A stretch of DNA of 55,045 bases from Psychromonas sp. Urea-02u-13. GTDB lineage: Bacteria; Pseudomonadota; Gammaproteobacteria; Enterobacterales; Psychromonadaceae. Location: contig NZ_PJBZ01000058.1 in NCBI RefSeq assembly GCF_002835995.1, forward strand, positions 1 through 55,045, given 5' to 3'. Shown piece by piece: positions 19,209 to 43,068 of this stretch (positions are counted from its first letter, which is position 1; each line of letters starts with the position of its first letter). The notes under the pieces are model-generated. The model ran no database searches, was not told the origin of the DNA, and saw nothing but the letters and a program-made list of their open reading frames with translations. Made by a program: the position numbers and the translations under genes.

Positions 19209-19209
19209 C

Positions 19210-26434: not shown

Positions 26435-27640
26435 TCAGATAAATTGTACGCGAGGTGGCGCGTGCATTAAAAAGTTCTGATGTGAAATATTCCACGCGTA
26501 AGCCCCCGCCTGAGTGAAAACAAGATAATCGCCTATTTGCAGTTTTTCAACATACTGCTGGGTTGCTAATACATCTTTAGGCGTACATAACTGCCCCACT
26601 AAGGTAACCGCTTCCTGATTAATTTTGATGGAAGAAAAACCCCCTTCTATCTCTTTTTCAGGCTCACCATTCACAATAAAAAAGGGATGATCATGGTTTT
26701 GCGCTGCCGGCGTTCTAAAGTGGTGTGTGCCGCCGTGGCCTACTGCAAAATACTGTCCATGATTATGTTTTATATCTAATACCTGCATCACGTAAAACCC
26801 ACAATCAGCAGTCACATAACGGCCACATTCAAAACGAATTTTAACGGCGCTGAGTTGTGATTCTTCAATCAACACATCAAGCTCTTGGCAAAATAATCGC
26901 CAATCAAAACGTTGCTCAGGGTTCGCATAATCAATGCCTATCCCGCCGCCGACATTGAGTAAATTAACATCTAACGCATAGCGTTTTTTCCACGTAATAA
27001 AGGTATTGAAATAGAGTTTCATCAGCGCTAAATGAACCTGCCTATCCAGTTGATGCGACATTAAATGAAAGTGAAAACCAAGCAACTTAATATGGCTTGA
27101 AGCCTTTACCATCGCTAACGCATCCGCTAACTCATTTTCACTTAATCCAAAGGGTGTGGGTTTGCCTCCCATCGTCAGTTTTGTTGCAGGTAATCCCTGC
27201 AAAGAGATATTCATGCGTAATAATATTTGGCAATTTTTCTCTTTTTGCTGACAAATTTCAGCGATGCGATTTAGCTCAGTTAAGCTTTCCACATGAATCG
27301 CTTCAACGCCTAATTCGATTGCCTGCTCTAATTCGCTGACCAGTTTCCCCGGCCCACCAAAGATTAAAGGCACCTGTGGCTGACATTGATGTAACCAAGC
27401 AAGTTCACCACCCGATGCAGCTTCAAAACCATCAACAATAGGCGCTAAAGCATTTAAGATCTGCTCTTCAGGATTGGCTTTGGACGCATAATAGAGTTCA
27501 CAGTTTTTTGGTAATACCTGCATCATCTCTGTGGCATGTCGCGTTAACGCGGCTAAGTCATAAATATATGCACAGAGTGGTGTTTCTGGTGCTTGTGTTT
27601 CTTTTAAGGCAATAATAGTTTTGTTTATTTGAGTGCTCAT
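26435..27640 (-). CDS. pvsE: PLP-dependent decarboxylase of siderophore synthesis, PvsE-like
   Basis: A 401-residue fold-type III PLP decarboxylase of the ornithine/diaminopimelate group. The PLP lysine is in YYASKANPEE (about residue 54). The glycine-rich phosphate loop is LNVGGGIGIDY, and ECGRYVTADCGFYV follows. In the vibrioferrin pathway PvsE is the amino-acid decarboxylase thought to generate the ethanolamine-type moiety; SbnH of staphyloferrin B is a relative. Its ATG shares one base with the pvsD stop (TAATG). It is the last gene of pvsABCDE and is followed by a terminator. The identity of the acted-on substrate is inferred from gene order. Confidence 0.88.
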   Translation of the reverse strand: MSTQINKTIIALKETQAPETPLCAYIYDLAALTRHATEMMQVLPKNCELYYASKANPEEQILNALAPIVDGFEAASGGELAWLHQCQPQVPLIFGGPGKLVSELEQAIELGVEAIHVESLTELNRIAEICQQKEKNCQILLRMNISLQGLPATKLTMGGKPTPFGLSENELADALAMVKASSHIKLLGFHFHLMSHQLDRQVHLALMKLYFNTFITWKKRYALDVNLLNVGGGIGIDYANPEQRFDWRLFCQELDVLIEESQLSAVKIRFECGRYVTADCGFYVMQVLDIKHNHGQYFAVGHGGTHHFRTPAAQNHDHPFFIVNGEPEKEIEGGFSSIKINQEAVTLVGQLCTPKDVLATQQYVEKLQIGDYLVFTQAGAYAWNISHQNFLMHAPPRVQFI

Positions 27641-29490
27641 TATTTTTCCAACAGCTGTAAAAGTGGATTCGGTAAATTTGTATAACTCGACAAACTATCG
27701 GCATGTTTTAATAAACGAGTGGTTAAGTTGTTTTTACTCGGAATAGCCTCGCCGCGTAGGAAACCTTGTAACTCTGGTTGCGCCTCTTCTTTTATCTGCC
27801 AATTTTTAACAGCTTCAGCGAGCACTAACCACAGTGTTGACTCTAATGCGCGATGACCATTAGCCAGATGGAAAATCGCTTCGCTGACATTATTAATTAA
27901 TGTGCAATAAGCAATACGGTTCCAACCTAACTCGCGAGTGTAATAAACAGAACTGCGCGCACGCTCAGACATCTCTGTAAGCGATTGCTCAGGCCAATGT
28001 GATTGCATCAGTTTGGTGCCCTCTAAATCTCGCAACCAAATATGCGCCGGTAAACCATTTTCAAAACCCACTACGGTATTTTGTAAATGCGGTTCAAAGG
28101 CAATACCAAGGTCGAAGAAATAATGGAAAACACCGGGTAACAAGGCATCCAAATAGGCTTCAAACCATTGACTTGCTAATGCGTCATAATCCAGTTTTTT
28201 TTGCGTGGCTAATACCTCGATGCGTTTTACACAAATGCTGTCACCTTTTTTATCCCAAGCAAATAATGCCCCCGCCATCTCTGGTTGATACTGCTGTTGC
28301 AGTTCATGACTAATGCCATCTCGATACAAGATGCCAAAACATTCAATCACCTCTTTAATATTATCTTGTTCATCTGGCGAAGCGATTGATGACAAATCTA
28401 ATGTGCTAGCTGCCGGCTCTTGCATCACCGAAAATTTAGGGCAATGTTCTTTCGCCTGCTGTGTATGTGGCTTGATTAATTTACTCAGTTGCACGGCACT
28501 TTCTAACTCATACCAAGCATTTTTACGCACACAATTGGTTAAACGCACATGAATGGAGAACTTCATAAAACTATTGGTTTTTTCACAATAAACCGTACGT
28601 ACTGATGAGGTTGGGAAGACATTTTTACCTAAGGTGCCAACGCCAAAAATCAATCCCGCTTTAATGGCTTTTTTAACCAAAGGTTGTTTTAGAATCGTTT
28701 CCACTTCCCACGGGTGACAGGGGTAAAGCAACTCATCGGTGGGATTAACTTGCCCGATTAAATCCGCCGGCGGAAATTCATCACAGCTCATTTGTTTAAG
28801 AAATTGTGGCGCGATTTTAAACCAATACAGTGGGAATTGAGCCTGTACTTCAGGCGAACAGCTAATCAGTTGATCAAAAGTCACCCCATCACGGCTCTTA
28901 GGTGCAGGGTGCATTGCATGGCCCCAGAGCAGGCTTTGTTCCGATTTAATCAAGCTTGAGTAACCCGTCGCTTCATCTGCGTGGTTGCCATTTTCAATAA
29001 ATAAACGGGTAATATTGATGCTATTTTGAATTTGTTCTAACAACTCAGTATTAACGTCCGTCGCCATGACCAAAGCAAGATGTTCAACAATTAAACGCGC
29101 TAATGTGCTGGCATCAATCGGGTGCCATGCTAAACCTTGGTGCTTTAAATAAGCTTGATTAACAAAACGAACTCGCCCTAATAAACTCACTTGATCCGCT
29201 TTAATCAAAATGACCGCATTTGATTCAGGAAACTGTAAACGAATACGTCGATGTTCATTAGCGTTATTAAAATTATCAGCTTTATTAAAATCATTTGATG
29301 TCATTTTAAATAAAGCCGGTGCATCGGCTTGATGATCGTCGAGTATTACCTCTCCTTTACCAAGCGCATATTCGCGGATGTAACAATTTAATAAACACAT
29401 CACCGCATTCATTTCAGATAGGCGTTGGTTTACTTCATTTTTGTATTTGTTGGACGTTGATGTGTTGATATCATGCAGTTGGGTAGACAT
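27640..29490 (-). CDS. pvsD: NIS siderophore synthetase, PvsD-like (IucA/IucC family)
   Basis: A 616-residue NRPS-independent siderophore synthetase. It adenylates a carboxylate, such as citrate, and condenses it with an amine or alcohol. Family motifs: LLWGHAMHPAPKSRDG, YPCHPWEVE, the ATP-binding PTSSVRTVYCEKTNSFMKFS followed by IHVRLTNCVRKN, and the C-terminal EPHLQNTVVGFENGLPAHIW with LRDLEGTKL. It starts 20 bases inside the end of pvsC and overlaps pvsE by one base, so the operon is translationally coupled. By order it matches PvsD of Vibrio. Which NIS type (A, B or C) it is cannot be settled by eye. Confidence 0.92.
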   Translation of the reverse strand: MSTQLHDINTSTSNKYKNEVNQRLSEMNAVMCLLNCYIREYALGKGEVILDDHQADAPALFKMTSNDFNKADNFNNANEHRRIRLQFPESNAVILIKADQVSLLGRVRFVNQAYLKHQGLAWHPIDASTLARLIVEHLALVMATDVNTELLEQIQNSINITRLFIENGNHADEATGYSSLIKSEQSLLWGHAMHPAPKSRDGVTFDQLISCSPEVQAQFPLYWFKIAPQFLKQMSCDEFPPADLIGQVNPTDELLYPCHPWEVETILKQPLVKKAIKAGLIFGVGTLGKNVFPTSSVRTVYCEKTNSFMKFSIHVRLTNCVRKNAWYELESAVQLSKLIKPHTQQAKEHCPKFSVMQEPAASTLDLSSIASPDEQDNIKEVIECFGILYRDGISHELQQQYQPEMAGALFAWDKKGDSICVKRIEVLATQKKLDYDALASQWFEAYLDALLPGVFHYFFDLGIAFEPHLQNTVVGFENGLPAHIWLRDLEGTKLMQSHWPEQSLTEMSERARSSVYYTRELGWNRIAYCTLINNVSEAIFHLANGHRALESTLWLVLAEAVKNWQIKEEAQPELQGFLRGEAIPSKNNLTTRLLKHADSLSSYTNLPNPLLQLLEK

Positions 29491-30682
29491 GTTTAAATGA
29501 CTCCTTTCTATAAAAAACTAAAACGATAACCGCTAGCAGGCACGCGATGCTGGCTAATAAAAAAGGCCAATGTAATGAGAACTGTTGGCTGATATAACCG
29601 GCGCTTAATCCAGCTAACACACCTCCCCATTTTCCCCATGCATCGAAACGACCAAAGCTCAATCCCGCTTTATTGTGTTGTAAGCGTTCACTTAACATAA
29701 GATGCAGACCGCTATAACTAAGCAACATACCCAAACCAAATAACAGTCGGTAAATCACTAAACCATCACTACTGCTCAGTAAAAATTGCCCAAAACAGGA
29801 CACTCCAAGAATGAGTAATCCGATCAGGGTTTGTTTGTGAGCATTCAGTGTTAGCTTGCCAACGCTGGTCGCCAGTAAAATATAAACAAGGTGAGGCAAG
29901 CTGTAATAAAAGCCCACCACGCTGTCGCTACTGGTCGCTAATGTTTGCACATAAGGTAAGAAATAAGGGAAAGTGACAACCATCGAAAAACAGAATAAGA
30001 ACTGTAATAGCAGTACCTGTGACATCTCCTTTTTCTCTGTTCTGTCAGCTGTTGATGATGCTGATGATGCAGTTGTTGGTGATGCTGTTGTTGATAGCAG
30101 CGATGATAGCGGTGATTTTTTTGCCTTTGTGCTCAGTTCATCTTTTTCTAAAAACAAACACACCACAAAAGCAATACAGGGCAATATCGCCAAATAACGG
30201 TAAATATCGAGGGGAGATTCAATTTGTGTGAATGCCCCCAATACCACCGGCGCACTCACTAATGCGAGCCGTGCTGACAACTGTGTCATGTTTAAGCTTT
30301 TTGCTAACGATGCGCCTTTAAACTTGCTGCTTAAATAAGCATTCGAAGCAGCTAACGTACCACCACAAAGGCCCTGCACAATTAAGCCTAAACAAAATAG
30401 CCATAATGTATCGGCAAAACCCGAGAGTAAAAATCCAACAATCAAGCCAAGTTGCGCACGTAATAAAGACTGTTTTTTACCAAACTTATCGGCAAATCGC
30501 CCCCACCATGTCGCCGTCAAGGCTGCACACAACACAGGTACAATAAACATAATACCCGTGAGGTATTCAGGATCCCCTTCCATTAAACTCGCTAACATAC
30601 GCGGCATAAATAACGGCATACCCAGTGCGGTAAAGGCGGTCAAAAAATGACATATCAATACCGCATAAATAACTGGCATCAT
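29471..30682 (-). CDS. pvsC: MFS siderophore exporter, PvsC-like
   Basis: A 403-residue major facilitator with about 12 membrane spans. The loop-2 signature is WWGRFADKFGKKQSLLRAQLG. The central cytoplasmic loop (about residues 190-220) is a Ser/Thr/Ala-rich low-complexity linker. Located between the two NIS synthetase genes as in pvsABCDE of Vibrio, where PvsC exports vibrioferrin. ATGA overlap with pvsB upstream and a 20-base overlap with pvsD downstream. Confidence 0.9.
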   Translation of the reverse strand: MMPVIYAVLICHFLTAFTALGMPLFMPRMLASLMEGDPEYLTGIMFIVPVLCAALTATWWGRFADKFGKKQSLLRAQLGLIVGFLLSGFADTLWLFCLGLIVQGLCGGTLAASNAYLSSKFKGASLAKSLNMTQLSARLALVSAPVVLGAFTQIESPLDIYRYLAILPCIAFVVCLFLEKDELSTKAKKSPLSSLLSTTASPTTASSASSTADRTEKKEMSQVLLLQFLFCFSMVVTFPYFLPYVQTLATSSDSVVGFYYSLPHLVYILLATSVGKLTLNAHKQTLIGLLILGVSCFGQFLLSSSDGLVIYRLLFGLGMLLSYSGLHLMLSERLQHNKAGLSFGRFDAWGKWGGVLAGLSAGYISQQFSLHWPFLLASIACLLAVIVLVFYRKESFKHVYPTA

Positions 30683-32448
30683 GCTGATTTCACCTGAAAG
30701 TCTGCGTGTAAGAAATTAGGCACACTGCGACCATAAAACTTATTAATATCAGCAGCACCCGAAACACGCTTGCTTAACAAACTACCAGAACTCAATAAAT
30801 ATTTAGCGGGCTGGAATTCTGCGGCTAATAAATAATCACGCGCGAACTGTGTTGCAATACCCTCTTCATCAAGCAGATTCAACTGATGCTGTAATGTCTC
30901 GCGTAATTGTTTATAGAGCTGTTCAATGGACATCATGTAATAACTTGCCATCGCTTCAAAAATTGCCGCGATATCAAGCTGTAAAGTAATAGTGGTAAAC
31001 ATGTCTGCCAACGCTTGCTCATTATCCACTAAGATACGCGGGTCAATTAATTGCTCCGTTTTGGGCTGAGCATGCTGCCCTAGCGCATTATTAATGTAAC
31101 GTTCGGCCAACAACCGTGCTGAATCGTTGTCTTTCATGATCAACGTGAGTGGCTGTTGATGAGAAAAAGCAATCACCGCATTTTGCTGATTAGACTCTAA
31201 TGCAATACCGTATTTAAGCCATAATCGTAGGTGCACACTGAGTAATAATGTTAAATATTGATCCAACCAAACCTGCACATCACCCGCATAAAAATGGTCA
31301 ATCAAATGCGCTAAATAAATGCGTCCATCGGGCATCTCACTGCCAAATGCAGCCACAGGTACGAGGTGTTTATCATGCATCGATTGCGGGTATTTACGCA
31401 CAATATAAGCCAGCTCTCTGCTTTCCCCCATGTGTCCGCCATGTTGCTCATCACAATGATCATACAAACCATAAAGCTTAGGATCGTGTTTCGCTAAATC
31501 CGTTAATATCTGCTCAAAACAATCACCATCGTATAACGTGCTCGGTTTTATCAGACGTACATTACGTGCCCCCAGTGTTGCCATAATAAGTGGTAATTTA
31601 ATATGAATTTCAGGACTGCTCAGCACAACGACCGTACGCACAGACAGTGTTGCAGTCACTTCTAATGCTTTAAGTGGCGCTAATACAATACCTGCAAGCG
31701 TAAAGTCCAATGTTGGGCAAGTTAATGGATGAACAGGGAACAGTTGATGCGTTTTTTGCAGAGAACTGTTTAATCCCACTTCATAAAACTCAGGCCAGCA
31801 GTCAGGCGTTTCACTGGTTAGAGTGACAAGTTGTTTGTCTATCGCGACCCAATTTAAAGCAAAAGGACGACTAAACTCTGGCGCGTAGGATTTTAAAGCC
31901 TCGAGATCAAAGCCCGATTTAGCACGCGCAGTTGGGTAATAAGGGTGATCCAGATAAGAGGCCACTTGATCTGAAAATAATAACTGTTCATGCCAAGTGG
32001 TTAAATCCGCTAACGGTCTCTTCACTTGTGGCAAACGATTTTTATAAGCAATCTGCGCGAGTTTTCTATGTTCAACAGCACATTCAGCTTCAGTAATATA
32101 ATGATAAAAGAACTGTTTATCTTCTTCCTCGAGATTATTGGCCAACACGTTTAACCAATCTTTAAAACCATGTTCATACACCACACTGTGTTGGGTTTCT
32201 CTTAACCATCCACTATAAGGCGCTTGCCAACTTTGCATATAATGACTTTCAGCAATAGCGACATAAAAAATATCGTTATCTAAGTGACTAATTTTAAGCC
32301 AATGTGTTGGCATTTCATGGGGCCACTGTTTACCGACCGTTAATGAGTCAGCATCAATCACCGAGCCTTGAGAAATAATTTCACAGACATTTTCTCGTAT
32401 ACAGGTATTAATAATACGCTGACTAATATAAGCATTATCCATCGCCAT
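30679..32448 (-). CDS. pvsB: NIS siderophore synthetase, PvsB-like (IucA/IucC family)
   Basis: A 589-residue second NIS synthetase. Family marks: FPVHPLTCPTLDF, the ATP-site SVRTVVVLSSPEIHIKLPL, and the C-terminal ALESNQQNAVIAFSHQQPLT followed by LIMKDNDSARLL. It is only distantly similar to the PvsD-like protein, as expected for enzymes adding different groups to the citrate core. Start is ATG 32448 with the strong RBS GGGAGGTG; a TTG five codons upstream would swallow that RBS. Its ATG overlaps the pvsA stop (TAATG) and its stop overlaps pvsC (ATGA). Confidence 0.92.
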   Translation of the reverse strand: MAMDNAYISQRIINTCIRENVCEIISQGSVIDADSLTVGKQWPHEMPTHWLKISHLDNDIFYVAIAESHYMQSWQAPYSGWLRETQHSVVYEHGFKDWLNVLANNLEEEDKQFFYHYITEAECAVEHRKLAQIAYKNRLPQVKRPLADLTTWHEQLLFSDQVASYLDHPYYPTARAKSGFDLEALKSYAPEFSRPFALNWVAIDKQLVTLTSETPDCWPEFYEVGLNSSLQKTHQLFPVHPLTCPTLDFTLAGIVLAPLKALEVTATLSVRTVVVLSSPEIHIKLPLIMATLGARNVRLIKPSTLYDGDCFEQILTDLAKHDPKLYGLYDHCDEQHGGHMGESRELAYIVRKYPQSMHDKHLVPVAAFGSEMPDGRIYLAHLIDHFYAGDVQVWLDQYLTLLLSVHLRLWLKYGIALESNQQNAVIAFSHQQPLTLIMKDNDSARLLAERYINNALGQHAQPKTEQLIDPRILVDNEQALADMFTTITLQLDIAAIFEAMASYYMMSIEQLYKQLRETLQHQLNLLDEEGIATQFARDYLLAAEFQPAKYLLSSGSLLSKRVSGAADINKFYGRSVPNFLHADFQVKSA

Positions 32449-33635
32449 TAGTTCACCTCCCAAATAAGCTCATTAATAATTGAAGCCGTTTTTTGTTTGA
32501 TCTCTTTTAAGGTCGGCCCTGTTGCGGTTAATAACCCCAAATAGTCTTTATTGGAATTGCTCAGGGTAATGTATTGATTTTTTTCTTTTAAAGGCTGGTA
32601 GTTAATATTGGTCGCACCTAACTGCTTAGTGAAGGCTGATTGATTTTTCTTTAATAAACCACTTTGATAAGCGGGGAAATATTCGATAACAGCACATTCA
32701 GAGTCATTATTAAGCACACCTAATATTTCACCGGCATGCAGTTGTAGGATTTTTTCAAACCAGTTAAAGGTTAATAAATCATTGAGTAAAAACTCTCTGC
32801 CATCACCAATACTGCGATAATTTATTTCTACTAACACAGGGCCATTAGCCGTAACAATAAACTCACTGTGGCAAACACCAAAATTAGCGCCAAAGGCTTT
32901 GACTTGTTGTAATGCTTGAGCGGCAAACAAGGCGCTGTTTTCACCGTTCCAAATAGCACTTAATTCAATAAAGTGAGGCAAGGGCGATAACTGCACATCA
33001 AAACCGCCAATCACAGCAATGTTTTCACCATCACCTAGGGTTTCTAAGGTAAACAATGGCCCTTCAAGGTATGACTCCAGTAAAATAGGCATACTTTTTT
33101 TCTTGAATCTGTCTTTATAAGCAATCAGTGCAGCTTCATTTTCACACAAAGCCACATCAAGACTAGAAACACCTTCACGTGGTTTTGCAATAATGGGATA
33201 AGTTAAATTTTCTGGTAAAGGGTCACTGGCAAACAAGGTCTGAGAGCAAACATTCTCGATACCTAACGTGGTTAAGGTTTGACGCATTTGGGCTTTGTTT
33301 TTGGCCTGATAACAGGTTTTCCAATTTTTACCTGGGCAAGAAAAGTAGTCGGCAACCAGCGCGTTTGATGTTTGCAAATGATCACTGTTTGAGAAAACAA
33401 CCTGCGGTTTAATATTGTGTCCATCGAGCAAATCAATGATGGCTAACGGATTAAACACATCACACTCTATTATTTGATCCGGCCCATTACAGACCAATGA
33501 AAAGTAATGTTTATGATCTAACCCATGATCGGTTAACAACACTACTTGGTACCCGAGCTTTAATGCTGCAGGTATAAAACCTTCGGTTACCGCCCTGTTT
33601 TGTACATGCGTAATTATGACCATTATCGGTTTCAT
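32448..33635 (-). CDS. pvsA: ATP-grasp ligase, PvsA-like
   Basis: A 395-residue ATP-grasp carboxylate-amine ligase. The N-terminal domain starts MKPIMVIITHVQNRAVTEGF; the ATP-grasp region has YPIIAKPREGVSSLDV, PILLESYLEGPLFTLETLG and GPVLVEINYRSIGDGREF, with the metal-binding E-x-N. In the vibrioferrin pathway PvsA is the first gene and is thought to join alanine to the chain. An open frame continues upstream to 33722, but the AAAGGAAT RBS points to ATG 33635 (or 33638). The Fur box at 33721-33739 then lies in the promoter. First gene of pvsABCDE. Confidence 0.9.
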   Translation of the reverse strand: MKPIMVIITHVQNRAVTEGFIPAALKLGYQVVLLTDHGLDHKHYFSLVCNGPDQIIECDVFNPLAIIDLLDGHNIKPQVVFSNSDHLQTSNALVADYFSCPGKNWKTCYQAKNKAQMRQTLTTLGIENVCSQTLFASDPLPENLTYPIIAKPREGVSSLDVALCENEAALIAYKDRFKKKSMPILLESYLEGPLFTLETLGDGENIAVIGGFDVQLSPLPHFIELSAIWNGENSALFAAQALQQVKAFGANFGVCHSEFIVTANGPVLVEINYRSIGDGREFLLNDLLTFNWFEKILQLHAGEILGVLNNDSECAVIEYFPAYQSGLLKKNQSAFTKQLGATNINYQPLKEKNQYITLSNSNKDYLGLLTATGPTLKEIKQKTASIINELIWEVN

Positions 33636-33720
33636 CATTATTCCTTTTATAAAGACAGACTTGTTATCAAAAAACCAGTTCAACAAAGTATCACCTTTGT
33701 GATACTCATCCCACCAACAC

Positions 33721-33739
33721 AATGATAATGATTATCATT
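33721..33739. promoter_or_regulatory. Fur box in the divergent pvs/pvu promoter
   Basis: AATGATAATGATTATCATT is a perfect 9-1-9 palindrome and nearly identical to the classical 19-bp Fur consensus GATAATGATAATCATTATC. It lies between pvsA (minus) and pvuB (plus), so iron-bound Fur can repress synthesis and uptake together. A partial ATTATCATTA occurs again at 33835-33844. Confidence 0.93.
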
Positions 33740-33874
33740 AACATTAAAGTCAAAGTCAAGATTAAATTTGTTTTTAAATAATGATTAGCCCGTTGATAAA
33801 AATAAAAAAACTAATGAATAACTTTATGAGATCAATTATCATTACGTTTTAAATCACTTGGCTCTTTAACCACT

Positions 33875-34768
33875 ATGCGTTTCTCTGTTATTTATAAGCT
33901 TCTCTTTCTGTTTAGTTTTTCTTTGTTTTCTAGCCAATCCTTTGCGCTGAAAATTGATCATGATGCTGGCTCTATTGAGTTTGATTCAACGCCACAAAGA
34001 GTGGTGGTATTAGCTTTTTCTTTTGTTGATGCATTAGCGATTGCGGGCGTTTCCCCCGTGGGTATTGCCGATGATGGAGATAAGAATCGAGTCATTAAAC
34101 GAGTGAGAGATAACATTGAGGATTGGCAGTCAGTTGGGTCACGTTACCAACCTAGTTTAGAGGCGATTGCAGCCCTTAAACCGGATCTGATTATTGCCGA
34201 TAGCGGTCGTCACCATTCTATCTATCAAGATTTAACGCGCATTGCCCCTACGTTAATGCTTAAAAGCCGCGGTGTTACTTATCAAGAAAACCTGCTTATT
34301 ATTGAAAAAATAGCATTAGCCGTAGATAAACAGTCGCGTGTTGAAAAGCGCCTTATCGAGCATAAAAAGCGTATGTTGGACTTCAAAAACAAGTTATCCA
34401 ATAAAGGCTCGTTCCAGTTTGCCGTGACCAGTGAAAAAGGGATGTGGTTACATAGCCCTTACTCTTACGCGGGCAGTGTGATTGAGGAGTTGGCATTAAC
34501 TAGTCCATTACCAAGCAGTAATAAACAAGTCTATTTACAAAGCAGTTTTGAACAACTGTTAAGCCTGAATCCAGATTGGTTATTTGTCGGACAATATTCT
34601 GATCACAGTGTATTAGACAAATGGCAAAAGAGCCCTTTATGGAAAATGCTCACTATCAGTAAATCACAACAAGTCGTCTCGGTATCCGCAAATGTATGGT
34701 CATTAGCCAGTGGGTTATTAGCAGCCGAGCAAATAGCAGAGCAACTTACTCAAGCCGTCAAAAAATGA
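33875..34768 (+). CDS. pvuB: Periplasmic ferric-siderophore-binding protein, PvuB-like
   Basis: A 297-residue class III (FecB/FhuD-like) substrate-binding protein. Signal peptide residues 1-24 (LFLFSFSLFSSQSFA/L). The domain includes RVVVLAFSFVDALAIAGVSPVGIADD, SLEAIAALKPDLIIADSGRH and the long connecting helix, ending ASGLLAAEQIAEQL. It delivers the ferric siderophore to the permeases. First gene of the rightward operon; its stop overlaps pvuC by ATGA. The RBS is weak by eye. Confidence 0.9.
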   Translation: MRFSVIYKLLFLFSFSLFSSQSFALKIDHDAGSIEFDSTPQRVVVLAFSFVDALAIAGVSPVGIADDGDKNRVIKRVRDNIEDWQSVGSRYQPSLEAIAALKPDLIIADSGRHHSIYQDLTRIAPTLMLKSRGVTYQENLLIIEKIALAVDKQSRVEKRLIEHKKRMLDFKNKLSNKGSFQFAVTSEKGMWLHSPYSYAGSVIEELALTSPLPSSNKQVYLQSSFEQLLSLNPDWLFVGQYSDHSVLDKWQKSPLWKMLTISKSQQVVSVSANVWSLASGLLAAEQIAEQLTQAVKK

Positions 34769-35823
34769 AAACCATTCAACAAACATTAAACGCTCCAGAT
34801 TCCTTATTACTCACATTAATAAAGTCATTAACCTCATTAAGCAGTGCCAAAGTCATCGTGCTTTATATGATGTTATTATTGGGTTTTACCCTGTCGTTAG
34901 TTGGCCAATCAGAGTTTTCACTGACGCTAAATGATGCCTGGCAAGCATTGATATCGCCCGATAGCGGCAGTATTAAACAGCAAGTTATTTTGTCATTACG
35001 TATGCCACGCAGTTTAATTGCTTGTTTAATTGGATTAAATCTCGGCGTTGCGGGTGTTTTAATGCAGGGTTTAACACGTAACCCACTCGCCTCACCGACA
35101 CTGTTTGCGATTAACTCTGGGGCAGCCTGTTTAATGGCACTGAGCAGTATAGGCGTGGCTTTCATCAGTGCCTTTCCCATCGAAGTGGTTACCTTTATTG
35201 GGGCTGCTTTAGGCGGGTTTTTAGTATTTTTTTTAGGCGGAGGGTTAAGTAGTCATCATAATCCTCTGCGTTTGATTCTTGCCGGCATTGCTATTAACGC
35301 GCTATTAACCTCGTTAACCCGCGCAGCCTTAATTATCTCCGACGACAAAGCACATACCCTTTTACATTGGTTATCAGGATCACTCAGTGAAGCCGATTGG
35401 CAAAATTGGTTACAACTCTGGCCAGTCAGTTTAGTGGCCCTATTAATTGCACTCTCAACCTCTCGGGGTCTCAATTTAAATGCACTTGGCGAACAAACCG
35501 CAAGTAGCTTAGGCATGAATGTAAACGCATTACGCATACGCGTTTGCCTCGCAGTTTTGTTGCTCACCGCTATCTCTGTGACCATTGCCGGCCCTATTGT
35601 GTTTGTGGGTTTAATTGCCCCACATCTCGCACGATCTCTGTTTGGCAATAATCATTATATGTTGATCCCCGCCAGTGGATTATTAGGTGCAGCCCTTGTT
35701 TGCTGGGCAGATTTATTATCACGATTTATTGTGCCACCAGCAGAAACACCGGTTGGCATTATTACCGCATTAATCGGCACCCCGTTTTTTATCTATTTAG
35801 TGCTTAAGGAAGAAAAGCAATGA
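34765..35823 (+). CDS. pvuC: FecCD-family siderophore permease, PvuC-like
   Basis: A 352-residue inner-membrane permease with about nine or ten spans. FecCD marks: LRMPRSLIACLIGLNLGVAG, LMQGLTRNPLASPTLFAIN, GLIAPHLARSLFG (the ATPase-contact loop) and ETPVGIITALIGTPFFIYL. ATG 34765 overlaps the pvuB stop; an in-frame ATG-like start at 34696 lies inside pvuB and gives a non-homologous extension. Overlaps pvuD by ATGA. Pairs with PvuD to form the channel. Confidence 0.92.
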   Translation: MKTIQQTLNAPDSLLLTLIKSLTSLSSAKVIVLYMMLLLGFTLSLVGQSEFSLTLNDAWQALISPDSGSIKQQVILSLRMPRSLIACLIGLNLGVAGVLMQGLTRNPLASPTLFAINSGAACLMALSSIGVAFISAFPIEVVTFIGAALGGFLVFFLGGGLSSHHNPLRLILAGIAINALLTSLTRAALIISDDKAHTLLHWLSGSLSEADWQNWLQLWPVSLVALLIALSTSRGLNLNALGEQTASSLGMNVNALRIRVCLAVLLLTAISVTIAGPIVFVGLIAPHLARSLFGNNHYMLIPASGLLGAALVCWADLLSRFIVPPAETPVGIITALIGTPFFIYLVLKEEKQ

Positions 35824-36794
35824 CACGCTTTCAAAAATCATTATCAGGTGGCGGTTTATTATTAGTGATATTGGCTGTTTATAGCCTGCTTAATGGCGCC
35901 CATCATCTTTCGGTGAACACTGTGGTTAGCACCCTATTTTACGCGGGCGATCAAGACTTTATCGTTAATCATTATCGCCTACCGCGTTTGTTTATCGCTA
36001 TTTTAGTGGGCATGGGCCTCGCCATTTCAGGTGTATTAACACAGGCTATTATTCGTAACCCACTGGCCTCTCCCGATTTAATGGGCATCAGTGGTGGCGC
36101 AGGATTAGCGGCCTGTACCGTATTACTCACGCAGCCTGATATTAACCCCGCATGGTTACCGGTTATTGCCTTACTTGGCGGTTTTACCGCAGCCTTTTTA
36201 ATTTACTGGTTAAACAGTCGCCATCAACCTAGCCCCGCGCGTTTAGCCTTGCTAGGCATTGCCATCAGCGCTTTTTTATCAAGCTGTATTAATTTTTTAT
36301 TGGTGCTTTATCCGATTGAAGTCAATAGCGCCATGATTTGGTTAACCGGCAGTTTATGGGGGCGTAATTGGGATTATATCTGGCCTCTATTACCCTGGTT
36401 ACTGACACTAGTGCCCTTCTCTTATTACCTTGCTTGGCGTTTAGACTTATTTGCCCTAGGGGATGAAACCGCGAGTGCATTAGGTGTTGATACAAAACGC
36501 TTGCAAATAATGGCGTTGTTAAGCGCCGTAGCGCTCGCCAGCGTGAGTGTTGCAGTTTGTGGCACCATTGGTTTTGTGGGTTTATTAGCGCCACATTTAG
36601 CGCGTTTACTGGTCGGTTCACAGCATAAATTAATGCTCCCAGTGGCCGCATTAATTGGCGCCTTATTAGTCTTAAGCGCCGATACACTCGCACGAAACTT
36701 AGCACCTCCATTAGAGCTACCGGCAGGTGTATTAACCGCGATTTTAGGCGCGCCCTATTTTGTTTTTTTACTGCATAGATATAAAGGTTGGTAA
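35820..36794 (+). CDS. pvuD: FecCD-family siderophore permease, PvuD-like
   Basis: A 324-residue second permease of the ferric-siderophore importer, paralogous to its neighbour. Seen: YRLPRLFIAILVGMGLAISG, LTQAIIRNPLASPDLMGISG, GFVGLLAPHLARLLVG and ELPAGVLTAILGAPYFVFLL. Starts within the pvuC stop (ATGA) and is followed by pvuE after 11 bases. Confidence 0.92.
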   Translation: MTRFQKSLSGGGLLLVILAVYSLLNGAHHLSVNTVVSTLFYAGDQDFIVNHYRLPRLFIAILVGMGLAISGVLTQAIIRNPLASPDLMGISGGAGLAACTVLLTQPDINPAWLPVIALLGGFTAAFLIYWLNSRHQPSPARLALLGIAISAFLSSCINFLLVLYPIEVNSAMIWLTGSLWGRNWDYIWPLLPWLLTLVPFSYYLAWRLDLFALGDETASALGVDTKRLQIMALLSAVALASVSVAVCGTIGFVGLLAPHLARLLVGSQHKLMLPVAALIGALLVLSADTLARNLAPPLELPAGVLTAILGAPYFVFLLHRYKGW

Positions 36795-36805
36795 GGTGAT
36801 GAGTC

Positions 36806-37570
36806 ATGATTAACGTTGAAAACTTAACAGTGGGTTACGGGAAAAAACGCATATTAGAAAACCTCAATGTCACTATTCCAAAGGGTAAAATAACGGCACT
36901 GATCGGCCCTAATGGCTGTGGAAAATCCACTTTGTTAAAGTCAATTTCAGGCAGCTTAACGCCTTCGACAGGAACAGTGAGTCTGGTTGATCAAGATTTA
37001 AGTCAGTTAAACCATAAAAAACGCGCACAACGTTTGTCTATTTTGGCGCAATCACCAATCACACCGGAAGGTATCACAGTACAACAATTGGTTAATTTTG
37101 GCCGTAATCCTTACCTGTCACATTGGGGTAAGTTATCTGAGCAAGATCACCACAAAGTGCAATTGGCACTGCAGGAAACTGAGTTACAAGATTTTGCTAA
37201 TACCGCCCTTAGTTCACTCTCTGGCGGACAACGTCAACGCGCTTGGATAGCCATGATATTGGCGCAGGATACCGAATATGTATTGCTTGATGAACCCACC
37301 ACTTACTTAGATTTAACCCATCAAGTGGATCTCATGGAGATGATGCGCACGATGAATCGTCAAGGTAAAACTATCGTGGTGGTATTACACGATCTTAATC
37401 AAGCGAGTCGTTATTGCGATCATTTAATCGTTATGAAAAAAGGCAAAATAATCGCCCAAGATAGCCCTCAAGAAATTTTTAATGATGCCTTATTAAAGGA
37501 AGTGTTCAACCTCGACGCACTCATTATGAACGACCCTGTCGCTAATAAACCCATGTGTATTGCGCTATAA
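36806..37570 (+). CDS. pvuE: Siderophore ABC transporter ATPase, PvuE-like
   Basis: A 254-residue FecE/FhuC-type ATPase. Walker A is GPNGCGKST (about residues 34-42), signature SSLSGGQRQRAWIAMILAQ, Walker B YVLLDEPTTYLD and H-loop VVLHDLNQASRYCD. It powers the PvuCD permease. Last gene before a hairpin region and a new Fur box, so the downstream genes probably form their own unit. Confidence 0.93.
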   Translation: MINVENLTVGYGKKRILENLNVTIPKGKITALIGPNGCGKSTLLKSISGSLTPSTGTVSLVDQDLSQLNHKKRAQRLSILAQSPITPEGITVQQLVNFGRNPYLSHWGKLSEQDHHKVQLALQETELQDFANTALSSLSGGQRQRAWIAMILAQDTEYVLLDEPTTYLDLTHQVDLMEMMRTMNRQGKTIVVVLHDLNQASRYCDHLIVMKKGKIIAQDSPQEIFNDALLKEVFNLDALIMNDPVANKPMCIAL

Positions 37571-37594
37571 AATGAATTGATAATGAACCACGAT

Positions 37595-37652
37595 TTAATC
37601 AGTACCTTTAATCAGCACTTTAATTAAAGGTGCCTCAAGGACTGATTAAAAA
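37595..37652 (+). terminator. Possible terminator after pvuE
   Basis: Nested inverted repeats: AATCAGT (37597-37603) pairs with ACTGATT (37641-37647), and inside them ACCTTTAAT pairs with ATTAAAGGT. A-rich rather than T-rich sequence follows, so termination strength on the plus strand is uncertain. Confidence 0.5.
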
Positions 37653-37772
37653 CTAATTGCTTCGCTCATATCACCCTCACACGCTAAAAACACGCTTGTC
37701 GCATCTGCCTCCTGCAGATGCTAAATGATAATAAATACCAACAAACTCTCAAAAACACTTGCAATAAAATTG

Positions 37773-37789
37773 GTAATGATTATCATTAC
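37773..37789 (+). promoter_or_regulatory. Second Fur box, upstream of the citrate synthase and receptor genes
   Basis: GTAATGATTATCATTAC is a perfect 17-bp palindrome fitting the Fur consensus. It lies 26 bases before the proposed start of the SbnG-like gene and inside a longer open frame that begins at 37725. An operator here argues that translation starts downstream of it. Confidence 0.92.
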
Positions 37790-37814
37790 GGAAATCCCGC
37801 AATTCGTACAAACA

Positions 37815-38582
37815 ATGTTAAAAAGCAATAAAGTGAAAAGTAAGTTAATGGCCAACGAAGAGATCTTTGGCATCTTAAATTCGGTGCCATCAGCGATCAT
37901 CACAGAGATGTTTGCCTTTGCAGGTTATGACTTTGTCATTATTGATACCGAGCATTTATTGTTTTCTCCAGACATATTAGAGCACGCAATACGCGCTGCT
38001 GAAAGTGTTGACCTTAGCGTGTTTGTACGTGTTCCTAGCCCCTGCCCTATTGCCATTACCCGTGCGCTTGATGCGGGTGCACAAGGCATTGTTATTTCCC
38101 GAGTTAGTAGTTTAAAAGAAGCGCAAACAGCCATTCAATCCTGCTTCTATCCCCCGATAGGCAAGCGTGGCATCACTGGCGGTAAAAATACCGGTTTTGG
38201 CACTATCCCGTTATCTGAATATATACAGCAAGCGAATCAACAAGTGATGTTGACCTTAATGATTGAAGATGAAGAAGGCGTTCAGTCCTTACCCGAGATT
38301 CTTAAATTGGGTCATATCGATATGATTTTAGAGGGCGCGTTAGACCTGAGTTTATCGATGGGTCACGGCACTGATTTCAACCACATTGAAGTACAGCAAG
38401 CCATTTCTACGATGGCCCACCATTGCGCACAGTCAAACGTTAAGTTTTGTGCCATCCCTCGTTTACCTGGGCAGTTACAACAATGGCGAGCAAAAGGGGT
38501 AACCACCTTTTTAGCAGGGGAAGACAGAGGACTGATGTTTAAGGCACTAAAACAGCATCTACAACAATTAAAAAATCAATAA
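37815..38582 (+). CDS. sbnG: SbnG-type citrate synthase (HpcH/HpaI aldolase family)
   Basis: A 255-residue class II aldolase-fold protein. It resembles SbnG, the dedicated citrate synthase of staphyloferrin B synthesis (about 259 residues), more than HpaI or GarL: GILNSVP and AGYDFVIIDTEH near the start, FCAIPR and TFLAGEDRGLMFK near the end. Metal/active-site positions are present: His47, Arg72 (FVRV), Glu151 (MIEDEEG), Asp177 (EGALDLS). It would make citrate from oxaloacetate and acetyl-CoA for the siderophore core when the TCA enzyme is limiting under iron starvation. ATG 37815 is chosen because the upstream extension contains the Fur box; Met12 is an alternative. It is followed after 58 bp by the receptor gene. 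Confidence 0.82.
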   Translation: MLKSNKVKSKLMANEEIFGILNSVPSAIITEMFAFAGYDFVIIDTEHLLFSPDILEHAIRAAESVDLSVFVRVPSPCPIAITRALDAGAQGIVISRVSSLKEAQTAIQSCFYPPIGKRGITGGKNTGFGTIPLSEYIQQANQQVMLTLMIEDEEGVQSLPEILKLGHIDMILEGALDLSLSMGHGTDFNHIEVQQAISTMAHHCAQSNVKFCAIPRLPGQLQQWRAKGVTTFLAGEDRGLMFKALKQHLQQLKNQ

Positions 38583-38640
38583 CAAAATCTTCAAAACTAA
38601 TTTTTTAAGCTAATTTTTTAAAACTAAGGAAAGTAACATC

Positions 38641-40767
38641 ATGACAAGCAAGCCCTTTAACTTCAAAGTAAAAGTATTATCCATTGCAGTATTAACCGCT
38701 ATCTCATCAAGTTATGCCTTCGCACAAGAAGCAGATGACAACGATAATGTCGAAAGATTAGTGATTACTGCAGGTGTATTAGGTAATTCTGAGCTTGAAG
38801 AGGTCAAGAAATACGAAGGTAATCGTACTGTACTGACTTCGGAAGTATTAACTAAAACTGGCGCGCGCTCAATTGATAGCGCACTGCAACAAGTACCAGG
38901 CATTAAGATTGCTGATGAAACAGGCACCGGTGTTTTACCTAACGTTTCTGTTCGTGGTCTAAACGGCAGCCGTAGTGGTTACACACAGTTTCTATTAGAT
39001 GGTGTGCCAATGACACTGGCGCCTTACGGACATACCGGACAATCATTATTCCCAGCAACACTTGGTATGATTGACCGTATTGATGTTATTCGTGGTGGCG
39101 CAGCCGTGCAATACGGACCTAATAATGTTGGCGGTGTTATTAACTTAGTATCTAAGCCTATCCCTGAACAATGGCAAACAAGCGTGAGAGAACGTCTCAC
39201 TTCATTTGGTGATGATAAGTTCTTGTCTGATACTTACCTGAGCACAGGCGGCGCATTTAATGAATTTTTCTCAGCACGTTTAAGCGCTAACTTTTTAACC
39301 GGTGAATCATTTCGTGATCATTCTGACACCGACGTACAAAACTGGATGTTACAAACAGCGTGGCAGATGAATAAAGCACAGAAATTAGAAGCCGTTGTGC
39401 AGTATTATGATGCAGAAACGCAATTACCCGGCGCATTAGATAGCGAAGCTTATGAGCAAGATAGAACACAATCATTGCGTCCTAACGATGAGTTTGCTGC
39501 CGATACCACCCGTGTTTCATTAAAATATAGCCACAATTTATATAAGTTAGGTTTCATCGATTCAGCTGGTTTTGATATCACCGCATTTGGCCATCAAAGT
39601 AAGCGTAATTTTCAGTGGGACTTTTACAACAAAGGCAAAGATACCGATGGCAACTTAGGTTCACACTGGGGTGATACCACACAAGAAGCAACAGATTTAC
39701 GTACTTCGCCACGTGAATTTAAAGTTTATGGCATCGAGCCAAGAGCAAACTTTTATATCGATGGCACGGTAAGCCAAGATTGGGTGGTCGGTGTACGTTA
39801 CGTCAACGAAGACATTAACTACAAACTCAACCAAACAGATAACGTCACACAGGAAACCACTTCACCACGTGATTGGCACATGGACACCAATGCAATGGCT
39901 TATTACGTAAGTAATAAACTGGGTTTCATGAATGAGCGATTAACAGTGACACCAGGATTACGTTACGAAGATGTGCGCATGGAATTCTCTAACATTGGAC
40001 AATCCTATGCACAAGAAAACCACGTTCAAGAAATATTACCTGGATTAACATTAGGTTATGAATTCTCAGATGTGCTCTTCTCTTACGCAAATGCACAAAA
40101 ATCCTTAAGAACGCCACAAATTAGTCAACTATGGCCACAGGATCAAACCTTAGATTCTGAATTATCATGGAACTATGAAGCGGGTTTACGTATCACACCA
40201 AGTGATGACACTATGGTCAATGTCGCTTTGTACCGTATTGATTTTGAAAACAAAATCCAATACAGCAAAGACATTAGCCAGTTCATTAATATCGGTGAAA
40301 CACGCAACCAAGGTGTTGAACTTGAAAGTTCGTTTGCACCCACTGAGTTACTTACCTTACGCGCGGCTTATAACTACTTAGATACAGAGCAACTAGATGG
40401 CGTATTCGCGGGTAACGAATTACCTTATGCGTCTAAACACCAAGTATCGGCCAGTGTATTTTACAACCTAAACGGCGTTGATGCTGGCCTATCGGGTTAC
40501 TACTACAGTAAGTCTTATGCCGATTTAGCGAACTCTGTTGAAGAAAATGAATCAGGCACAGCGGGTGAATTACCGGCTTACACTGTGCTTAACTTAAGTT
40601 TGTCGTCAGAAGTTTATAAGCGTGATACACAAAGCTTAAAAGTAGGATTGGCTATTAATAACCTGCTAGACAACCAACACTACTTCCGTGGTTTAGATGT
40701 ATCGCCGGCTGGACGTGTGCCTGCACCAGGTCGTTCTATTACGCTTGATGTAGGTTACGATTTCTAA
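38641..40767 (+). CDS. pvuA: TonB-dependent siderophore receptor, PvuA-like
   Basis: A 708-residue outer-membrane receptor. Signal peptide 1-28 (SSSYAFA/Q). TonB box region ERLVITAG at about 38-45; plug domain ALQQVPGIKIADETG, VSVRGLNGSRSGYTQFLLDG and DVIRGGAAVQYGPNNVGGVI; a 22-strand barrel ending with the aromatic-F motif LDVGYDF. It resembles FecA-like receptors for carboxylate siderophores. RBS AAGGAAAG is ideal. It shares the second Fur box with the SbnG-like gene; in Vibrio pvuA instead heads the uptake operon. Ligand is inferred from context. Confidence 0.88.
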   Translation: MTSKPFNFKVKVLSIAVLTAISSSYAFAQEADDNDNVERLVITAGVLGNSELEEVKKYEGNRTVLTSEVLTKTGARSIDSALQQVPGIKIADETGTGVLPNVSVRGLNGSRSGYTQFLLDGVPMTLAPYGHTGQSLFPATLGMIDRIDVIRGGAAVQYGPNNVGGVINLVSKPIPEQWQTSVRERLTSFGDDKFLSDTYLSTGGAFNEFFSARLSANFLTGESFRDHSDTDVQNWMLQTAWQMNKAQKLEAVVQYYDAETQLPGALDSEAYEQDRTQSLRPNDEFAADTTRVSLKYSHNLYKLGFIDSAGFDITAFGHQSKRNFQWDFYNKGKDTDGNLGSHWGDTTQEATDLRTSPREFKVYGIEPRANFYIDGTVSQDWVVGVRYVNEDINYKLNQTDNVTQETTSPRDWHMDTNAMAYYVSNKLGFMNERLTVTPGLRYEDVRMEFSNIGQSYAQENHVQEILPGLTLGYEFSDVLFSYANAQKSLRTPQISQLWPQDQTLDSELSWNYEAGLRITPSDDTMVNVALYRIDFENKIQYSKDISQFINIGETRNQGVELESSFAPTELLTLRAAYNYLDTEQLDGVFAGNELPYASKHQVSASVFYNLNGVDAGLSGYYYSKSYADLANSVEENESGTAGELPAYTVLNLSLSSEVYKRDTQSLKVGLAINNLLDNQHYFRGLDVSPAGRVPAPGRSITLDVGYDF

Positions 40768-40876: not shown

Positions 40877-41235
40877 TGTTATTACCCTCCTCTTTTTAGT
40901 GATTACTTTGATAAAACACTCAAAATTTAATTTATTTAAAACAAATACCAATCCCCCCTTTTATTACGTGCCTTATAAACACTGCAGAAAAGCATTAACA
41001 AGCCATTAACAAGCCGTAAAAATAAAACATCATCCCGCGCCGTTACGCCTCCTAAATGTTAGTTTTTTGTTACACATTAACACCTACTTTTATTGCCACT
41101 ATTTTTAGTAAAACACAGCCTAAAATTAAATCTAAAATTCTATTTTTGTTGGTTTATTTAATATGAAATGCCTGCGATACTGGCTTGCATCACATTTTTA
41201 TTTTAAAGTCTTTGAGTAAGGTCAATAGAAATCAA

Positions 41236-43068
41236 ATGGATAAATCCTTAGAAAAACAACTAACAACCTGGCTAAAAGAGCAGAAGACATCCTGTGGTTT
41301 CTTCCTTAATTTAACGGTGTTATTTGGTTTATTAACTGGCTTTGCATTAATGTTACAAGCCTACCTACTGTCGACTATTCTGCATGGCATTATCATCAGC
41401 GAATTACCCAAGTCGGCCTTTACGAATGACTTTATTTTACTCTTAGTATTAATCCCTATTCGTGCATTATTAGCCTTTGCCCGTGAGCGAAGCAGTTTTG
41501 AAGCGGGTAAACGTTTACGACTACAAATTCGTAAAGCGGTATTAGATAAACTCAGCGAATTAGGGCCTGCCTTTATTAAAGGCAAACCCGCAGGTAGCTG
41601 GGCAAGCATCGTGTTGGAACAAATTGAAGACTTACAGGATTTTTACGCACGTTATTTACCACAAATGTTATTAGCCGGTTTTATCCCGCTGTGTATTTTG
41701 ATCGTGGTCTTTTCGCTTAATTGGACTGCCGGCCTGATTCTTTTAACCACGGCACCACTGATTCCACTATTTATGATTTTAGTGGGCATGGGCGCTGCCG
41801 ATGCAAACCGTAAAAACTTCAGCGCATTAGCACAGTTAAGTGGCCATTTTATGGATCGCTTAAAAGGTTTAAAAACCTTAAAACTGTTTAATCGCAGTGC
41901 AGCTGAAATCAGAGAAATAGAATCAGCTTCTGAATCATTTCGTCAACGTACTATGTCTGTTTTACGTTTAGCGTTTTTAAGCTCTGCGGTTTTAGAGTTT
42001 TTTGGCGCCGTTTCCATTGCGGTGTTAGCGATCTATTTTGGTTTTAGTTTTTTAGGTCACCTTAATTTTGGTGATTACGGCCAAGGCATTAGCCTCTTTA
42101 CCGGTTTGTTTATCTTAATGTTAGCGCCTGAGTTTTATCAGCCCCTGCGCGACATGGGAACTCATTACCATGCAAAAGCACTAGCAATAGGCGCAGCTGA
42201 AGAATTAAAAGCGTTGCTTGATTATCAAGTTGAAACACCTACTCAAATAAACACCACAGACCATGTTAGCAATAACAATACAGCGGAAAACAGTATTCAA
42301 GCGGTAGATTGGACAGCGCCCATTACGCTACAAGCAAGCCAACTGAATGTTTATAGTCACGATGGAATCAAACTTGTCGGGCCGCTGAGCTTTAGCCTTA
42401 AAAAAGGAGAGCAATTAGCATTAGTTGGACCAAGTGGCTCCGGGAAAACCAGTTTATTAAATGCCCTGTTAGGTTTTTTACCTTATCAAGGTTCGTTATT
42501 AATTAATGGTGTTGAGCTTAATCAAATAGATAAGTCTCAGTGGCGCCAACAACTCGCATGGTTAGGTCAAGACCCACAACTGTTCCATGGCAGTATTTTT
42601 GAAAATGTCACTATGGGAGATAGTAATATATCTGCCCAGAGAGTGGAATCCTGTTTACAAAAAGCCGCTATTTGGGACTTTGTTGAACAACAAGATCAAG
42701 GCGTAAATCATGCGATTGCAGAACAAATGGCAGGCCTTTCTGTCGGTCAAGCACAGCGTATTGCCCTCGCTCGTGCACTGGCACAAGATGCGCAACTATT
42801 TTTGTTAGATGAACCCACGGCCAGTTTAGATCAGCACAGTGAGCAAGCGATCTTCAGCGCGCTCAGTGAGGCAACAAAAACATCGGCGAGTTTAATGGTC
42901 ACCCATCGTTTAGATCAACTCCAATCAATGCAAAGAATACTGGTCCTCGATAAAGGCATGATTGTGCAACAGGGCGATTTTAATACCTTAAATCTACAGT
43001 CTGGTTTGTTTAAGCAGATGCAACAGGATGAAATAGGGCCAACAAATTCAGAGGAGCTAAACCTATGA
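41236..43068 (+). CDS. cydD: Cytochrome bd biogenesis ABC exporter subunit CydD
   Basis: A 610-residue half-transporter. CydDC exports glutathione and cysteine to the periplasm and is needed for cytochrome bd and periplasmic cytochrome assembly. The N-terminal six-span domain is very like E. coli CydD: GPAFIKGKPAGSWASIVLEQ, FYARYLPQM, APLIPLFMILVGMGAADANR and LAPEFYQPLRDMGTHYHAKA. The ATPase has Walker A GPSGSGKTSLLNALLGFLPY, the variant signature LSVGQAQR and FLLDEPTASLDQHSEQ. An upstream in-frame ATG at 41185 adds a non-homologous tail, so MDKSLEKQL at 41236 is chosen. Overlaps cydC by four bases. Confidence 0.94.
   Translation: MDKSLEKQLTTWLKEQKTSCGFFLNLTVLFGLLTGFALMLQAYLLSTILHGIIISELPKSAFTNDFILLLVLIPIRALLAFARERSSFEAGKRLRLQIRKAVLDKLSELGPAFIKGKPAGSWASIVLEQIEDLQDFYARYLPQMLLAGFIPLCILIVVFSLNWTAGLILLTTAPLIPLFMILVGMGAADANRKNFSALAQLSGHFMDRLKGLKTLKLFNRSAAEIREIESASESFRQRTMSVLRLAFLSSAVLEFFGAVSIAVLAIYFGFSFLGHLNFGDYGQGISLFTGLFILMLAPEFYQPLRDMGTHYHAKALAIGAAEELKALLDYQVETPTQINTTDHVSNNNTAENSIQAVDWTAPITLQASQLNVYSHDGIKLVGPLSFSLKKGEQLALVGPSGSGKTSLLNALLGFLPYQGSLLINGVELNQIDKSQWRQQLAWLGQDPQLFHGSIFENVTMGDSNISAQRVESCLQKAAIWDFVEQQDQGVNHAIAEQMAGLSVGQAQRIALARALAQDAQLFLLDEPTASLDQHSEQAIFSALSEATKTSASLMVTHRLDQLQSMQRILVLDKGMIVQQGDFNTLNLQSGLFKQMQQDEIGPTNSEELNL

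Follow-up and report, generated by a model that had tools for sequence, protein, structure and literature searches.

A vibrioferrin-type siderophore locus of Psychromonas with a putative Fur-controlled SbnG-type citrate synthase, probably an old component of pvs clusters

We analysed a window of 55,045 nucleotides from Psychromonas sp. Urea-02u-13 (contig NZ_PJBZ01000058.1; source assembly 4.75 Mb in 320 contigs), which carries a vibrioferrin-type (pvs) siderophore locus at positions 26435-40767. The synthesis genes pvsEDCBA lie on the minus strand, and divergent fecBCDE/pvuBCDE-like uptake genes on the plus strand are followed by a gene resembling sbnG and by a TonB receptor gene. The features of the locus are:

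26435..27640, minus strand: pvsE-like pyridoxal phosphate (PLP)-dependent decarboxylase, 401 amino acids (Pfam PF02784, Orn_Arg_deC_N, 117.6 bits; PF00278, 65.4 bits)
27640..29490, minus strand: pvsD-like nonribosomal peptide synthetase-independent siderophore (NIS) synthetase of the IucA/IucC type, 616 amino acids (IucA_IucC 160.8 bits; FhuF 120 bits)
29471..30682, minus strand: pvsC-like major facilitator superfamily (MFS) exporter, 403 amino acids (MFS_1 118.9 bits)
30679..32448, minus strand: pvsB-like NIS synthetase, start inferred (IucA_IucC 98.1 bits)
32448..33638, minus strand: pvsA-like ATP-grasp ligase, 396 amino acids (alignment with PvsA of other clusters)
33718..33742: overlapping Fur-box-like sites in the divergent pvsA/pvuB promoter (best 18/19; 0 of 200 shuffles as good)
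33875..34768, plus strand: fecB/pvuB-like periplasmic binding protein (NCBIfam PRK11411, 384 bits, cut-off 320)
34765..35823, plus strand: fecC/pvuC-like permease (FecCD 305.5 bits; PRK11228 304.8, under the cut-off of 396)
35820..36794, plus strand: fecD/pvuD-like permease (FecCD 325.4 bits; PRK09777 355.3, under the cut-off of 406)
36806..37570, plus strand: fecE/pvuE-like ATPase (PRK11231 400.2 bits, cut-off 375)
37772..37790: Fur-box-like site ending 25 bases before the SbnG-like gene (16/19; 0 of 200 shuffles as good)
37815..38582, plus strand: SbnG-type citrate synthase homologue, 255 amino acids (Pfam HpcH_HpaI 83.7 bits)
38641..40767, plus strand: TonB-dependent receptor, 708 amino acids (PF00593 barrel 147.7 bits; PF07715 plug 78.7 bits)

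The locus has the gene content of a vibrioferrin-type cluster, namely the pvsA-E order of ATP-grasp, NIS, MFS, NIS and PLP decarboxylase genes, with a linked receptor and fecBCDE-like uptake genes. A preliminary description of the window had proposed this pvsABCDE/pvuBCDE order plus a TonB receptor, the latter at the end rather than the head of the uptake genes; the open reading frames (ORFs) and their Pfam and NCBIfam matches confirm it, and the receptor is found after the SbnG-like gene. The window PvsA falls under the Pfam cut-off for ATP-grasp (25.7 versus 27) and is 40-64% identical in alignment to PvsA of 16 other clusters. The TTG start that the ORF caller sets for its gene, at 33722, extends into the Fur-like site. 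For the pvsB-like gene we adopted the first internal ATG in place of the caller's TTG at 32463, 15 bases further upstream, and the start of the fecC/pvuC-like gene was placed at the overlap with the preceding stop. Genome-wide, the only NIS genes at E <= 0.001 are the two of this locus, and one canonical citrate synthase is encoded elsewhere.

The ORF caller starts the SbnG-like gene at 37725, giving 285 amino acids. Since this frame passes through the palindromic Fur-like site at 37772-37790 and the closest homologues are about 255 amino acids long, with a start matching the ATG at 37815, we take the 255-residue length of the preliminary description to be correct. With this start, the residue numbering equals that of Staphylococcus aureus SbnG at all clade-residue positions listed below. 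The three SbnG-like segments pointed out earlier, FCAIPR and TFLAGEDRG among them, are all present in the translation.

S. aureus SbnG, the enzyme of the staphyloferrin B pathway (PDB 4tv5), is the best solved match of the 255-residue protein both by sequence, at about 36% identity, and by fold. A tree of the protein with SbnG and HpaI/GarL had been named beforehand as a test of its identity. In this tree a branch with support of 99/93 separates 84 siderophore-cluster proteins, S. aureus SbnG included, from nine other family members, and the window protein lies on the SbnG side. The NCBIfam aldolase models are not reached (HpaI 125.7 versus 368.8 bits, GarL 114.6 versus 406.75, RhmA 91.5 versus 441). 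Twelve clade residues (R60, E63, G123, M149, E173, A175, C212, A213, P215, R216, W224 and R238) are present in full in both the window protein and S. aureus SbnG and are all absent from six HpaI/GarL/RhmA references, which have Q at position 149; three other family members have 1, 2 and 6 of them. The 84 + 6 sequences described by these residues also served to pick them, from 15 qualifying positions; at the dropped positions (F40, V93 and L133) the window protein has all three residues and S. aureus SbnG has I93. Residues common with the aldolases are retained in the window protein (E46, H47, R72, E151 and D177). Tree, sequence and fold match, and clade residues bear out the earlier assignment of the protein to the SbnG type rather than to HpaI/GarL. 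SbnG is reportedly placed in one clade with homologues of other siderophore clusters in the account of its structure by Kobylarz in 2014. Source names within the clade vary among 'siderophore biosynthesis protein SbnG', '4-hydroxy-2-oxovalerate aldolase' and '4-hydroxy-2-oxoheptanedioate aldolase'.

Named genomes searched with the clade alignment yielded 471 confirmed relatives, and synteny was counted for the best 80 of these 471, a sample that leans to close relatives. Siderophore-synthesis genes adjoin the SbnG-type gene in 80/80. At least two NIS genes are in view for 76; the remaining four lie on contigs of 3.5-14 kb that start inside the cluster and have the decarboxylase gene in view. 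Fifty of the genes belong to clusters with PvsA, 26 to clusters that have two or three NIS genes but lack PvsA, and four to these short contigs. The 26 PvsA-less clusters comprise 13 in Pseudomonadota that we take to be achromobactin-like from their gene content, and 13 in Bacillota and Actinomycetota. Such constant linkage rules out that the gene is a chance neighbour. In the PvsA clusters it follows pvsE, precedes the receptor gene or pvsA, or, as in the window, follows the ATPase gene, with at least six gene orders in all; the gene shifts position within the pvs cluster yet stays linked. PvsA-like proteins at about 39% identity were also observed on the Streptomyces chartreusis plasmid NZ_CP108841.1 (L166) and in Nonomuraea (H60).

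An SbnG-like gene in a pvs-type locus is thus a kind of system already known and is not unusual. The preliminary interpretation stands as regards a complete vibrioferrin-type locus with an SbnG-type protein, and the synteny search it suggested, for pvs clusters with an adjacent aldolase-family gene, finds many. The rarity it implied does not stand: in the samples examined, the gene is regular in pvs clusters outside two genera. Likewise, its placement between ATPase and receptor genes is true of the window and is one of the arrangements found.

Fur-like sites were scored against a 19-position Fur-box consensus, with 200 dinucleotide shuffles as control. Over the whole window, four matches with up to three mismatches were observed versus 0.02 expected. 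The 58-base gap between the SbnG-like gene and the receptor gene is without a Fur-like site (best 9/19). Among the relatives, a site of at least 14/19 precedes the SbnG-type gene in 14 of 21 loci where it heads a unit, that is, where none of eleven cluster families lies directly upstream on the same strand, versus 2 of 60 where it is internal. Internal genes mostly overlap or abut the upstream frame, and both internal loci with a Fur-like site share the ATPase-gap-SbnG layout of the window. Judged from sequence, the SbnG-type gene is in most loci tied to the siderophore genes, either through its own Fur-like site or through its position inside a gene row. A decoupling of siderophore citrate from the tricarboxylic acid (TCA) cycle would fit with a separate gene that has a Fur-like site, in a genome with one further, canonical citrate synthase.

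SbnA and SbnB are not found above their curated cut-offs anywhere in the genome (best 199.3 versus 349.95 and 82.9 versus 326.9 bits), and staphyloferrin B is rejected as the product on these grounds, in line with the earlier expectation; the window also departs from the staphyloferrin B cluster in its pair of NIS synthetases, its ATP-grasp enzyme and its PvsE. Achromobactin-type clusters are like the window in that an SbnG-clade gene adjoins NIS genes (the 13 loci above) and differ in having three NIS genes and no PvsA. The clusters of Cupriavidus necator H16 pHG1 and a Pantoea soli plasmid share with the window PvsABCDE, a TonB receptor and a neighbouring gene of the aldolase family; they differ in gene order and list no full fecBCDE set in the stretches shown. 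The C. necator protein falls in the SbnG clade. On the P. soli plasmid (L164:10180-10947), the aldolase-family gene, SbnG-like by position, lies directly before pvsA.

Proteins of Lysobacter, Dyella, Luteibacter and Rhodanobacter, genera that we take to stand with the xanthomonads, carry 11-12 of the 12 clade residues. These genera are present among the 120 of 288 protein-search matches listed, where the name Xanthomonas is absent. SbnG-clade proteins of Pseudomonas bear the same source name as Xanthomonas mhpE/mphE, 4-hydroxy-2-oxovalerate aldolase. In the excerpts of the literature used here, the Xanthomonas xss cluster consists of mhpE, xsuA and xssA-E (PMC6804348), mphE has a Fur box and adjoins the receptor gene XCC3050 (PMC1790865, 2007), X. 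campestris makes vibrioferrin (PMC5130282), and AcsB of achromobactin synthesis is listed as an aldolase (PMC8907978). As far as these excerpts go, the xss cluster is like the window in its pvs-type synthesis genes, TonB receptor and mhpE; unlike it, the window is laid out divergently and carries fecBCDE-like genes of its own. Position, source name and the relatives in kindred genera suggest that Xanthomonas mhpE/mphE is probably the SbnG-type gene under another name.

The Vibrio pvsABCDE and pvuABCDE genes (L126/L165) match the window in their five synthesis genes, in their uptake genes of the pvuBCDE type and in the divergence of the two units; unlike it, they have no SbnG-type gene, and a pair of TonB receptor genes separates the units. 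In the portions covered, a study of vibrioferrin systems in Vibrionaceae from 2018 deals with PvsABCDE alone, and the words 'aldolase' and 'citrate synthase' are absent from its main text (PMC5812596).

To analyze the distribution of the gene independently of its own sequence, a PvsA profile was run over four overlapping sets of 369, 60, 398 and 394 genomes, with matches kept at E <= 1e-57. The profile was built from SbnG-bearing clusters only, and a divergent PvsA without the gene could escape it. Nineteen genomes matched, the source genome included; 12 of these 19 have the SbnG-type gene in the cluster. The other seven belong to two genera, with four Vibrio and three Piscirickettsia-like genomes; over the pvs stretch, G409 matches a Vibrio fortis plasmid at 100% identity, and G220 does the same with a plasmid of P. 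salmonis. In five of the seven, no family match at E <= 1e-10 occurs anywhere in the genome, and G651 and G1007 each have one unlinked family member with 1 of the 12 clade residues. Across this survey, ten cluster genes have 10-12 of the clade residues, two of them (G887 and G952) probably already in the residue-defining set, versus 0-3 in nine family members that lie unlinked in these genomes. Two weak PvsA matches (G528 and G673, 113 bits) were left out of the 19, and no pvs cluster was found in the G528 stretch with the match. Within the genus of the source, 3 of 24 genomes have a PvsA match, the source included, and all three carry the SbnG-like gene; the pvs cluster is sporadic within the genus. 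One Piscirickettsia-like cluster (L130, G320:C1:555000-574000) has two separate frames for each of pvsA, pvsB and pvsC, which gives the look of decay or of mis-assembly.

In a PvsD tree with an achromobactin-type outgroup, the window PvsD groups with Psychromonas clusters, Vibrio is nested among Psychromonas, Shewanella, Microbulbifer and Pseudomonas clusters, and Piscirickettsia lies in the other half. Approximately unbiased (AU) tests, chosen after the tree had been inspected, reject holding the SbnG-less pvs clusters together (p-AU 0.0008), all SbnG-bearing pvs clusters as one clade (p-AU 2.4e-7) and Vibrio outside the other pvs clusters (p-AU 0.0003). A concatenated PvsA/B/D/E tree with more Vibrio rows, a quick build of 47 chosen rows with G320 and G1079 left out, agrees with the PvsD tree, the placement of Piscirickettsia there being unstarred (81). 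Composition deviates and stem branches are long in the Vibrio and Piscirickettsia rows, the Piscirickettsia branch measuring 1.87 in the PvsD tree. Since the SbnG-less genera fall in two places inside a tree of SbnG-bearing clusters, the gene was probably ancestral in pvs clusters and lost in Vibrio. The simplest reading of the trees would be one ancestral SbnG-type gene and two losses.

One alternative is that the SbnG-like gene is not ancestral and joined pvs clusters several times by transfer. Its varying position, in at least six gene orders, would agree with this, and most of the SbnG-bearing tree rows, also in the achromobactin-type outgroup, entered the sample by way of the SbnG-type gene itself and are blind to how often such clusters are without it. 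Against repeated transfer, the SbnG-type and PvsD trees have deep groups in common (Alteromonad-like with Pseudomonas; Marinobacter with Halomonas and Marinobacterium), and we regard it as unlikely. Neither does a single late gain fit, because the one-clade constraint on SbnG-bearing pvs clusters is rejected.

Together, our results suggest that the window holds a vibrioferrin-type locus with a Fur-controlled, SbnG-type citrate supply, an old pvs component lost in the Vibrio and Piscirickettsia lineages, and we consider this reading very likely. Somewhat less firmly, though still with better than even confidence, we would regard a dedicated SbnG-type citrate synthase as an ancestral core enzyme of vibrioferrin synthesis, of which the Vibrio pathway is a reduced form and from which Piscirickettsia lost the gene independently. 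What the analysis shows is the gene content, the family membership, the Fur-like sites, and the linkage and deep groupings that the SbnG-type gene shares with the pvs genes; citrate synthase activity of the putative SbnG-type enzyme, Fur control, the identity of the product and the benefit of a second citrate source are inferred.

We then propose a model for the operation of the locus. Citrate synthesis by SbnG is metal-independent, and PvsD, PvsB and PvsA of the locus would join citrate, ethanolamine derived from serine through decarboxylation by PvsE, alanine and 2-oxoglutarate. Fur would repress the divergent pvsA/pvuB promoter and, separately, a promoter shared by the SbnG-like gene and the receptor gene. 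During iron shortage, the SbnG-type enzyme would make citrate from oxaloacetate and acetyl-CoA for the siderophore pathway, the reaction given for SbnG in excerpts of PMC7139808 and PMC12096840. This citrate would feed PvsD/PvsB while iron shortage throttles the TCA cycle; PvsC would export the product, and the receptor and PvuBCDE would return the iron complex.

Several observations weigh against this reading. A canonical citrate synthase is already available to the cell, and no Fur-like site of 14/19 is found in 7 of the 21 loci with the gene at the head of a unit. The residue signature is imperfect, with 6/12 both in an archaeal Halomarina member outside any siderophore cluster seen and in a divergent siderophore-cluster relative from Methylocystis (L006). 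P0001, a protein 98% identical to the window protein, is just 36% identical to SbnG, and within the clade SbnG joins achromobactin-type and Firmicute/actinobacterial proteins rather than pvs-type ones, so a shifted substrate is possible. The Vibrio and Piscirickettsia-like genomes manage without the gene, which is therefore not essential to vibrioferrin-type synthesis. The Halomarina gene (plasmid L096:5001-5777), the outgroup row nearest to the SbnG clade in the tree, has no siderophore gene listed nearby. The Methylocystis gene lies on an M. iwaonis plasmid (L006:5986-6783) within a three-NIS cluster and may be an intermediate or have a shifted function.

The low identity to SbnG and the separate lineages that pvs-type members form within the clade could also mean that the enzyme makes a different tricarboxylic or hydroxy acid and that the product is a vibrioferrin variant. 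However, all 12 clade residues agree with SbnG, and Marinobacter algicola DG893, reported as a vibrioferrin producer in an excerpt of PMC8424206, has the order SbnG-type gene, pvsABCDE, receptor gene (L065); the gene is therefore compatible with ordinary vibrioferrin, and we give a variant product little credence. Database and Xanthomonas names would make the protein an ordinary aldolase of carbon catabolism, metal-dependent and HpaI-type or MhpE-like, that lies here by chance. We consider this highly improbable, since the scores of the HpaI and GarL models stay far below the cut-offs and the tree, the signature residues with M149 in place of the aldolase Q, and the linkage to NIS genes all contradict it.

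In the literature passages covered, we found no report that names a pvs-cluster gene as a citrate synthase, nor one that describes the gene as a regular, probably ancestral component of vibrioferrin clusters lost from the Vibrio operon. Among the papers searched, none mentions vibrioferrin together with SbnG. If the proposed reading is true, most vibrioferrin-type producers make siderophore citrate by a Fur-controlled enzyme apart from the TCA cycle, and under iron starvation may supply the siderophore from a citrate source of their own. Many proteins now named aldolases, Xanthomonas MhpE probably included, would then be SbnG-type citrate synthases, and a widespread misnaming would be corrected. 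The Vibrio operon that served to establish the pathway would, on this reading, be a derived and reduced form. Vibrioferrin is important in iron exchange between marine bacteria and algae. This exchange is touched on in the passages of PMC8424206 covered.

Two further gene groups were observed in the window. Directly after the siderophore locus, at 41185-44891, lies a tandem pair of ATP-binding cassette (ABC) exporter half-transporters, presumably CydDC-like by arrangement. At 16012-20145, a gene row that includes an alpha/beta hydrolase-methyltransferase fusion, a dual-specificity phosphatase domain and a cytidylyltransferase is perhaps a lipid-modification operon.

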